64,000 bases of DNA from a virus. Within the stretch, counting starts at the first letter, position 1, and each line of letters starts with the position of its first letter. A program made the position numbers and the translations under genes. Below are positions 47,664-49,910 of this stretch, piece by piece. The stretch covers positions 22,228 through 86,227 of the IMG/VR virus record IMGVR_UViG_3300032046_000013. One strand, given 5' to 3'. The notes beneath the pieces were generated by a model. It had not been told where the DNA came from and searched no databases. It worked only from the letters and a program-made list of their open reading frames with translations.

Positions 47664-48773
47664 TCATTTTCCAGTCAGAATTGCCCAAGCCACGGCCACG
47701 CACAGAGGAACTTGGCCGTTGCCCAAACTTTTGAGCCTAGCTACCCGATCAGTTTTATCTTCGGTAACTCTCGGGATCAGCCCATCATCAGCGGGGTCTT
47801 GCTCCCACCATGAGCCGTCAAAGGTTCTGGTCAACCAATCCTCGAAATCTTGGGCGGACAAAGGTTCCAACGATTCCCAATTTATGGGCCAATTCATCAG
47901 CCACGCAACCCAACAAGGATTGAGTTGGGCGTTGTCCCGTCCGATCTGCGCCGAAATTTTGTCCTCCAACTTCCGAATCCCCCCGCCCCTGGTTTTGCGT
48001 TCTACCTGTCCCCCTCCACTCGGAACTTTTGGGGTCGGGTAAGTCTGCGGGGTCCTGAGACCACCAACCGCCGTAGTCAATGTCGGTGCTTTGGTCTTGC
48101 GAATTCGCTTGATCTGCCCAGTGCGATATTTTTCCAAACTGGCTTCCGATGGTATGGCTTCCGGGTCGTTCTCCCGCTCGGATGCTGTCGGTGTCGGCCA
48201 CTTCTTCACTTCCTCTGCCAATATCTTCCCGCCTTTCTGATTTGGGCGACTTCCCGGATTGCTTTGCCTTGGAGTCGGCCAGAACTGGCGGTTGATCTCC
48301 TGAACATGATCCCGGAGTTTGTATCTGCCCGCCATCCCATCCCGCATCTCCATGATCCCGCCCTCGCCGTCCGAACTTCCGGGCGACCGCCACAATCCAG
48401 AGCCGATCTCTCCGCTGCGGCGCTCCCAGTTCTCCCGCTGATATAACTTTCCATCGAGCATCATACCCGCTCTCGGCCAAGTCCCGGAGAATGGTTCCGA
48501 AGTAAGGGTGAGCAAGGAGACCTGGGACGTTTTCCAGCAGGCAGAACTTGGGCCGGACGATTCCAATGACGCGAATGGTGTCAGGCCAGAGGTTTCTCTC
48601 ATCCATATCTCCCTGACGCTTTCCGGCGACGGAGAAGGGCTGACAGGGGAAGCCTGCCGCAATGATGTCCGTAACTCCTCTATAAAGGTCTGCGGCTCCC
48701 GAATCAATGAATGTTCGGATAGGGCCATAGATAGGGGCGTTTGGCAAGTATCCATCTCTGATCCTTTGCGCAA
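47664..48773 (-). CDS. Second long frame over the cytosine methylase gene
   Basis: 369 codons, shifted by one base relative to the methylase, with about 950 nt dual frame. It contains FSGTWPRAGMMLDGKLYQRE, WPTPTASERE and LNPCWVAWLMNWPINWESLE, motifs I recall as a stand-alone ORF near phage cytosine methylases, and then the canonical C-terminal methylase motif LKSLGNGQVPLCVAVAWAIL. It may be an overprinted gene or the displaced C-terminal half. The start is unclear. Confidence 0.45.
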   Translation of the reverse strand: MRKGSEMDTCQTPLSMALSEHSLIREPQTFIEELRTSLRQASPVSPSPSPESVREIWMRETSGLTPFASLESSGPSSACWKTSQVSLLTLTSEPFSGTWPRAGMMLDGKLYQRENWERRSGEIGSGLWRSPGSSDGEGGIMEMRDGMAGRYKLRDHVQEINRQFWPTPRQSNPGSRPNQKGGKILAEEVKKWPTPTASERENDPEAIPSEASLEKYRTGQIKRIRKTKAPTLTTAVGGLRTPQTYPTPKVPSGGGQVERKTRGGGIRKLEDKISAQIGRDNAQLNPCWVAWLMNWPINWESLEPLSAQDFEDWLTRTFDGSWWEQDPADDGLIPRVTEDKTDRVARLKSLGNGQVPLCVAVAWAILTGK

Positions 48774-48885
48774 TTACTTTCTGGCAGTAATCATCCAATT
48801 CTACATAACCCACGGGTCGCCAACCCAAAAGATGTGTTCCGAGCAATCCACCACCAGCGCCGGAGAACAGGGACAACTCATTCAC
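47818..48885 (-). CDS. dcm: C5-cytosine DNA methyltransferase (C-terminus frameshifted)
   Basis: 355 aa. Motif I FSGAGGG (7-13), motif IV GFPCQPFS with catalytic Cys81, motif VI LLENV (116-120) and motif VIII QRRDR (157-161). After residue ~170 comes the variable target-recognition region. The usual motifs IX-X (GNxQVP) are not in this frame but in the overlapping frame at 47664-47730, so the enzyme lacks its normal end unless a frameshift joins them. Modifies phage DNA. Confidence 0.75.
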   Translation of the reverse strand: MNELSLFSGAGGGLLGTHLLGWRPVGYVELDDYCQKVIAQRIRDGYLPNAPIYGPIRTFIDSGAADLYRGVTDIIAAGFPCQPFSVAGKRQGDMDERNLWPDTIRVIGIVRPKFCLLENVPGLLAHPYFGTILRDLAESGYDARWKVISAGELGAPQRRDRLWIVAVARKFGRRGRDHGDAGWDGGQIQTPGSCSGDQPPVLADSKAKQSGKSPKSERREDIGRGSEEVADTDSIRAGERPGSHTIGSQFGKISHWADQANSQDQSTDIDYGGWWSQDPADLPDPKSSEWRGTGRTQNQGRGDSEVGGQNFGADRTGQRPTQSLLGCVADELAHKLGIVGTFVRPRFRGLVDQNL

Positions 48886-48905
48886 TCTTCACGTCCTTTT
48901 TCCAA

Positions 48906-49910
48906 TTATACATTTTTCAGCAGACTCATCTGCCCCGCCTGCCATTGCTCAGTTGGGAAGCAATGCGGGCTGATCCATAACTGTTCGCGGTGGCGGTTCT
49001 CCATGCCCGGGCCCTTGCCTTGATTCCCGTATCCGCCCTGGGCCTTCCACTTGTGGACTCTCCATCCGGGCAGGTCATGTTCGTCCTCATAACCCGCCAA
49101 CACGATCCGATAGCGCGGGTTCTCGCCCCGCTCCCGACACCATGCGCCTACGTCCTGGGCCACCGTCAAGCTCTCCTGATGGTAAATGCCGGAGTCTCTA
49201 TCCGATACCGAATAGGGCGGGTCAAAAAACATTCCGCAAATACCGGAATGATCCTGCCAGTTGCCGCCGCAGACCCGCGTCCAATCGCCGCAGACTACGC
49301 GGACGTACCGGAGCCGGGCGGAAAGTTCCCCAAACCAGCGGTAGATATTCTCATTGCGAGCCGCGTGAACGCCCGTCCCCGTGTTGCCCAGGTTCGGTCT
49401 CTGGCCGATGGCGTGAACCCCCTCCCCCGCGTCGCTCAGGTGCGGTCTCTTGCCGATGGCATGAACGCCCTTCCCCGTGTCGCCCAGGTGCGGTCTCGCA
49501 TTAGGACGAGTCAAGCCTGATCCGATCCAACATGAGGCCGCCCAAATCCAATAACCGGCCATGACCGGATCGTGCCAGCGATCATCGGCAATCAGGTTTT
49601 CAAGTAGCCGTCCCTCGTTTTTAATCAAGGCCGCTCTCCGGACGCAAAGGTCGGCATGGTTCACGGGCCAGTCTGACCACTTGGCCGTTTCCTCCGGGCT
49701 GAACTGAATCGCCCGCCAAACGTTCGCTACGAACCCGTCCTTGTCGCAAACACTTTCTGTATGCCGGGTTGGATCATAACCGGGCCGATTGAGCAACACC
49801 GCCCCGGAGCCGAAAAACGGCTCAATGTAATGGGCCACATCGCCGAGGGCGGCCCAGACTACGGACGCGATCATGGACTTACCGCCGAAGTAAGGGAATG
49901 GAGCTTTCAT
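48906..49910 (-). CDS. D12-class N6-adenine DNA methyltransferase with internal repeats
   Basis: 334 aa. Motif I FPYFGGKS (5-12) and FFGSGAVLL, and motif IV FDPPY (229-233) in the order of the Dam/D12 family. Between them three 16-residue repeats (RPHLGDTGKGVHAIGK-like, 139-183) interrupt the domain; they look like a small repeat array in a surface loop. Methylates adenine, probably for protection against host enzymes. Confidence 0.8.
   Translation of the reverse strand: MKAPFPYFGGKSMIASVVWAALGDVAHYIEPFFGSGAVLLNRPGYDPTRHTESVCDKDGFVANVWRAIQFSPEETAKWSDWPVNHADLCVRRAALIKNEGRLLENLIADDRWHDPVMAGYWIWAASCWIGSGLTRPNARPHLGDTGKGVHAIGKRPHLSDAGEGVHAIGQRPNLGNTGTGVHAARNENIYRWFGELSARLRYVRVVCGDWTRVCGGNWQDHSGICGMFFDPPYSVSDRDSGIYHQESLTVAQDVGAWCRERGENPRYRIVLAGYEDEHDLPGWRVHKWKAQGGYGNQGKGPGMENRHREQLWISPHCFPTEQWQAGQMSLLKNV
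49362..49496 (-). repeat. 48-bp repeat inside the adenine methylase
   Basis: About three copies of a 48-nt unit coding for RP(H/N)L(G/S)(D/N)(T/A)G(K/E/T)GVHA. Copies differ at several bases, so the array is not brand new. Confidence 0.75.

Follow-up and report, generated by a model that had tools for sequence, protein, structure and literature searches.

In some C5-cytosine methyltransferases, the conserved motifs are divided between two polypeptides. The large subunit of M.EcoHK31I (YGGCCR) carries motifs I-VIII and motif IX comes from a second polypeptide, while in M.AquI (CYCGRG) the alpha subunit contains motifs I-VIII and part of the variable region, and the beta subunit contains the distal variable region and motifs IX-X (PMC3404938). 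A literature search for overlapping C5 methylases in phages found none described beyond these precedents. The M.EcoHK31I beta subunit is reportedly read from an overlapping alternative frame. In Streptococcus phage MM1, orf13 and orf14 are annotated as 'C5 methyltransferase alpha/beta subunit', and the beta gene lies in the +1 frame inside alpha.

We analyzed a 64,000-nt stretch of DNA (the window) from the 86-kb record of an uncultured virus, in which terminase-like genes and another methylase lie near a pair of long overlapping frames that we term alpha and beta. Our data suggest that this locus very probably encodes one C5-cytosine methyltransferase as two polypeptides, alpha and beta, read from overlapping frames. 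The features of the locus are as follows:

47818..48885, minus strand: alpha ORF (frame 1), 355 aa, GTG start, with C5 methyltransferase motifs I-VIII
After motif VIII, minus strand: alpha tail, ~195 aa, open, without motif IX or X
48894..48898, minus strand: Shine-Dalgarno AAGGA for alpha, 8 nt 5' of the alpha GTG, assigned from sequence
47664..48755, minus strand: beta ORF (frame 2) from its likely ATG, 363 aa (MDTCQTP...), +1 relative to alpha
47664-48773, minus strand: full open extent of the beta frame, 369 aa, with a TTG at its upstream end
48762..48767, minus strand: Shine-Dalgarno AAAGGA for beta, 6 nt 5' of the beta ATG and within the alpha coding sequence
48850..48876, minus strand: alpha motif I, LSLFSGAGG
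48634..48654, minus strand: alpha motif IV, GFPCQPF, with the catalytic Cys
48445..48555, minus strand: dual-coded stretch of ~110 nt, alpha RPKFCLLENVPGLLAHPYFGTILRDLAESGYDARWKV (motifs VI-VII) over beta ...WKTSQVSLLTLTSEPFSGTWPRAGMMLDGKL
48400..48417, minus strand: alpha motif VIII, QRRDRL
47886..47924, minus strand: beta motif IX, LNPCWVAWLMNWP, where the alpha frame reads GCVADELAHKLG
47706..47726, minus strand: motif X, LGNGQVP, in the beta frame only

The two frames overlap by 938 nt counted from the beta ATG at 48755, or 956 nt from the TTG, in agreement with an initial annotation that described about 950 nt open in two frames. That annotation placed methylase motifs I-VIII in one frame and GNGQVP in the other, and both assignments were borne out. 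Alpha matches PF00145 (E=1e-36) over motifs I-VIII alone, with the match ending at residue 170, and motifs I, IV (PCQ), VI (ENV), and VIII occur in order along it; motifs IX and X are absent from alpha and sit in beta. In a fold search, a model of the fused alpha/beta chain matched M.HhaI, M.HaeIII, and DNMT1 over ~175 aa; the model is good for alpha alone and unreliable in its beta half, so the search confirms alpha only.

Beta matches phrog_1008, 'DNA methyltransferase', over most of its length (E=1e-26). It contains WPTP repeats that we take to be the target-recognition region of the methylase, the motif-IX-like sequence with the pattern L-T/N-P-x-x-x-x-x-L-M-G-x-P, and motif X; both motifs expected of a C5 methyltransferase C-terminus, recognized by sequence pattern alone, are thus in the beta frame. 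The assignments of the target-recognition region, IX, and X rest on sequence pattern, PHROGs, and a fused homologue (L131, below). A Pfam search of beta gave no match and left the region with motifs IX and X unaligned, the beta alignment retrieved nothing meaningful in a profile search of the PDB, and a structure prediction of beta alone was poor (pLDDT 57). The beta sequence as a single query found no matches among viral contigs, and an alignment-based search was needed to recover its relatives. PHROG 363 corresponds to alpha and PHROG 1008 to beta; both are labeled 'DNA methyltransferase' and are catalogued as separate families with no note of the overlap.

In our model, alpha (48885-47818) would supply the AdoMet-binding catalytic half with motifs I-VIII. 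Beta would initiate within alpha at ATG 48755 through its own Shine-Dalgarno sequence, in the +1 frame, and would contribute an N-terminal segment, the WPTP repeats as target-recognition region, and motifs IX and X. We infer that both products are translated and assemble in trans into one methylase with methylation activity, which most likely protects phage DNA against host restriction. This arrangement shares with M.EcoHK31I the provision of motif IX by a second polypeptide from an overlapping frame (compared by description rather than by sequence), but the window has motif X in beta, and beta runs 154 nt beyond alpha. Since we tested for motif X and found it outside alpha, we do not file the window as M.EcoHK31I-type. 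The division of I-VIII in alpha and IX-X in beta is instead that of M.AquI. To our knowledge the M.AquI genes are not described as overlapping, whereas the genes in the window share 938 nt. In the window, the motif division of M.AquI is joined to an overlap like that of M.EcoHK31I.

About 180 related loci were recovered from viral and genome contigs, 169 of them with placeable motifs. Most were retrieved by similarity to beta, which biases the sample toward open beta frames; alpha served as the query for the MM1-type set. The second frame recurred in close phage relatives on inspection of all reading frames, and motif IX lies in the +1 frame relative to motifs I-VIII in 165 of the 169 loci with readable motifs. 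The four exceptions comprise two indel-like loci (L076 and L152), one interrupted locus (L130), and one continuous locus (L131). In L131, from an Actinomycetota MAG, a single frame of 730 aa runs through motifs I-VIII, the repeats, IX, and X; it joins the alpha and beta parts in one chain without overlap, and its beta C-terminus is 40% identical to that of the window. A stretch resembling the dual-coded segment (FARFDEKTLSWRS...PWPRSGFVRTG, a weak match) follows motif VIII in the same frame. No relative combined a single methylase frame with a random second frame, an outcome that would have argued against the initial annotation: the sole continuous locus, L131, has the beta-frame target-recognition region, IX, and X fused after VIII.

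Alpha holds motif X in 137 loci, which match the motif split of M.EcoHK31I, and beta holds it in 15, the window among them. The spacing from IX to X is bimodal, at 55-70 nt in 132 of the 137 X-in-alpha loci (median 62) and 168-513 nt where X is in beta; the window, at 198 nt, falls within the latter class. In X-in-alpha loci, one ~100-nt segment reads ...GRVADGVAxRVDRLKALGNGQ in alpha and ...LNPxWVEWLMGWPxGWTDLKPLEMDK in beta. The alpha reading of this segment in the window has decayed to GCVADELAHKLGIVGTFVRPR, and GCVADELAHKLG seems to be what is left of the tail GRVADGVAxRVDRLKALGNGQ seen in X-in-alpha relatives. In X-in-beta loci alpha usually ends soon after VIII, with its stop 5' of motif IX in 12 of the 15, which would be expected if the tail serves only for reaching X. 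The window alpha tail stays open hundreds of nucleotides past the usual stop of X-in-beta alphas, and we interpret this open tail, which the two-chain model does not require, as a vestige of a recent ancestor with X in alpha. In another X-in-beta locus (L092:2315-3748), the beta tail RVADGVAARVDRLKAIGNGQVP is a sequence found in the alpha of other loci, which suggests duplication or transfer of the tail as a route by which motif X may change frame.

We compared the openness of both frames with synonymous-shuffle nulls. In the window, alpha was open from VIII to past IX in 0 of 3000 shuffles that preserved the beta protein; in the reverse shuffle of the window alone, the beta frame was open by chance in 32%, which is weak for one sequence. 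The reverse test becomes decisive across 51 loci: the beta frame is open over IV-VIII in 50 (14.4 expected) and over I-VIII in 38 (2.5 expected), while the third frame across relatives is as open as the null predicts. Canonical bacterial C5 methylases calibrate this null (34 stops against 34.7 expected, and 36 against 38.6) and lack the stop avoidance of the alpha/beta loci. The openness figure of 46/46 for X-in-alpha loci is partly circular, as the class is defined by an open alpha frame; the unconditional figure is 147/163. Streptococcus MM1-type methylases were considered as a no-overlap control and rejected, with canonical bacterial methylases substituted, because beta is present there too: 0 stops occur in the +1 frame over IV-VIII against 147.9 expected, and the frame is open in 68/68. 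The overlap is thus wider than the window's family. In these Streptococcus-type phages and prophages (L189-L267), whose C5 methylases are complete in a single frame and call for no further motif, the +1 frame nonetheless stays open and synonymous variation is locally depressed.

The initial annotation proposed codon-position conservation as a check on both frames, and the substitution pattern in relatives shows selection alternating between them. In pairs at 75-85% identity, difference rates at alpha codon positions 1/2/3 are.167/.092/.380 over motifs I-VIII, flip to.390/.257/.259 between VIII and IX, stand at.250/.103/.081 at IX, and flip back to.213/.144/.355 after IX. One pair (L050/L058) shows the same in counts, 4/2/23 and then 23/3/0, and the window differs from L009 at 44/26/81 alpha positions over I-VIII and 57/51/98 beta positions after VIII. 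Over I-VIII, it is the third codon positions of alpha that differ most; from VIII through IX the differences move to those of beta, and near X they return to alpha. Most of the overlap is thus a handover between frames and is not double-coded in full. Alpha fourfold sites differ at 0.225-0.384 where beta reads 'WKTSQ...SETWPRxGMM', compared to 0.58-0.65 at motifs IV and VIII (134 sequences and 1235 pairs, the pairs not being independent); early fourfold blocks near the start sites also show lower rates. The ~110-nt stretch over alpha motifs VI-VII is constrained in both frames, hence truly dual-coded. Overprinting, one of the options in the initial annotation, holds in part: across the family each frame has the behavior of a translated gene, but clear dual constraint is confined to these ~110 nt, and elsewhere in the overlap one frame is under selection and the other merely kept open.

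Beta also has start sites of its own. Of the alphas that begin M-[NH]-E-L, 64 of 66 have AAT or CAT for the N/H residue, which places a beta ATG 4 nt downstream of the alpha start, and beta is open from that ATG in 61/64; T usage for these N/H residues is about 32% elsewhere. For betas that open within alpha, that of the window included, a 4-nt Shine-Dalgarno sequence precedes 34 of 52 first ATGs, compared to ~16% of other ATGs. These counts come from related sequences rather than independent trials, and binomial significance is overstated. The conserved starts and Shine-Dalgarno sites favor independent initiation over frameshifting.

This last point bears on a reading that the initial annotation had also raised, a programmed +1 frameshift after VIII that would yield a single I-VIII + TRD-IX-X chain (like P0003) and no separate beta. 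In its favor, X-in-beta loci such as the window would need just one +1 shift for a collinear methylase, a four-letter-word translation runs without interruption for 406 aa, and L131 is a fused homologue. We nonetheless consider a frameshift improbable. X-in-alpha loci (137, with the order alpha-beta-alpha) would require two opposite shifts, the conserved beta starts and Shine-Dalgarno sites lie upstream of any handover, and stop avoidance and dual-coding constraint span IV-VIII, also upstream of any shift. A programmed shift predicts a fixed slippery site and no independent start in the second frame; we found independent starts, and inspection by eye of the translations near alpha ends revealed no common slippery site. 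The annotation's remaining suggestion, a recent frameshift mutation (or an assembly indel) that split a one-frame methylase, could draw on the continuous frame of L131 and on the resemblance of L076 and L152 to simple indels, but we reject it given an identical phase relation in 165/169 loci, substitution patterns that demand long-term coding in both frames, a 198-nt IX-X spacing that fits the X-in-beta and not the X-in-alpha class, and the derived appearance of L131, which is nested in the window's clade.

Beta could also be a separate protein with its own job, such as a methylase regulator or anti-defence factor, with alpha methylating alone or with another partner. MM1-type loci lend this idea some substance: motifs I-X all lie in the alpha frame there, but in 68/68 the +1 frame is still fully open over IV-VIII, and the MM1 +1 ORF, annotated as a 'C5 methyltransferase beta subunit', has its own PHROG (16143). 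We regard this as very unlikely for the window's family, in which alpha lacks IX (and here also X), beta has both in the right order and under selection, and L131 fuses alpha and beta into one chain. MM1 itself differs from the window in that its alpha already has IX and X, and its 141-aa beta lacks them. We tentatively raise the idea that the overprinted beta N-terminus (over alpha IV-VIII) might be a functional unit itself, with a role beyond lending IX, and that X might move freely between the frames; the N-terminal part of beta shares its coding sequence with the catalytic core and occurs also in Streptococcus-type phages whose alpha has every motif. If so, phage C5 methylases would often carry a largely unannotated nested second gene.

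In a tree built from alpha I-VIII, 11 changes are required to account for the 13 rows with X in beta, and well-supported mixed pairs include L009/L137 (98/93) and L043/L108 (100/85). From this tree we count about eleven frame changes of motif X. The window's clade of 15 rows (98/96) includes L131 in a nested position, so the fused form is probably a derived loss of overlap.

The overlapping arrangement is kept in >150 related viral and bacterial sequences. In the phage, plasmid, and E. coli records with this arrangement that we examined, alpha is listed (sometimes as a pseudogene or hypothetical) and beta is absent; the exception is the MM1 record, which lists both genes. This suggests that half of a common phage methylase is hidden by gene callers, which reject nested genes. 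The principle of overlapping subunits is known, while the frame hopping and the scale look new. These loci form a large natural data set of one enzyme split across two overlapping frames, with motifs IX and X read from one ~100-nt segment in two frames in many relatives, and permit direct tests of overlapping-gene origin, part exchange, and separation (L131).

Several loci carry interruptions. In two Spirochaetaceae MAG alphas (L111:656-2695 and L110:1-342), a putative intein sits exactly at motif IV (GGFP-C...HN-CQDIS), identified by Pfam Hint_2 and a sub-cutoff Intein_splicing match; an intact active site would require its removal by splicing. Two further loci (L117:1638-2378 and L020 around 2427) have an HNH-like stretch, recognized by eye, upstream of the motif IV interruption in alpha, and L117, L020, and L055 have a stop at the GFP|CQ junction. 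A search of the motif IV insertions against Rfam revealed no intron. The beta frame is broken at a G-run in L110/L111 (YDRGGGG site) and at a CA-repeat in L130 (HTHTHTHT site), possibly through slippage, phase variation, or assembly error. In the window, the gene upstream of alpha (48906-49910, minus strand) matches D12/Dam-type adenine methylases over its N-terminal ~70 aa only, and contains a tandem repeat (49363-49497) of 2.8 copies of a 48-bp unit, encoding 16-aa units (RPHLGDTGKGVHAIGK-like).
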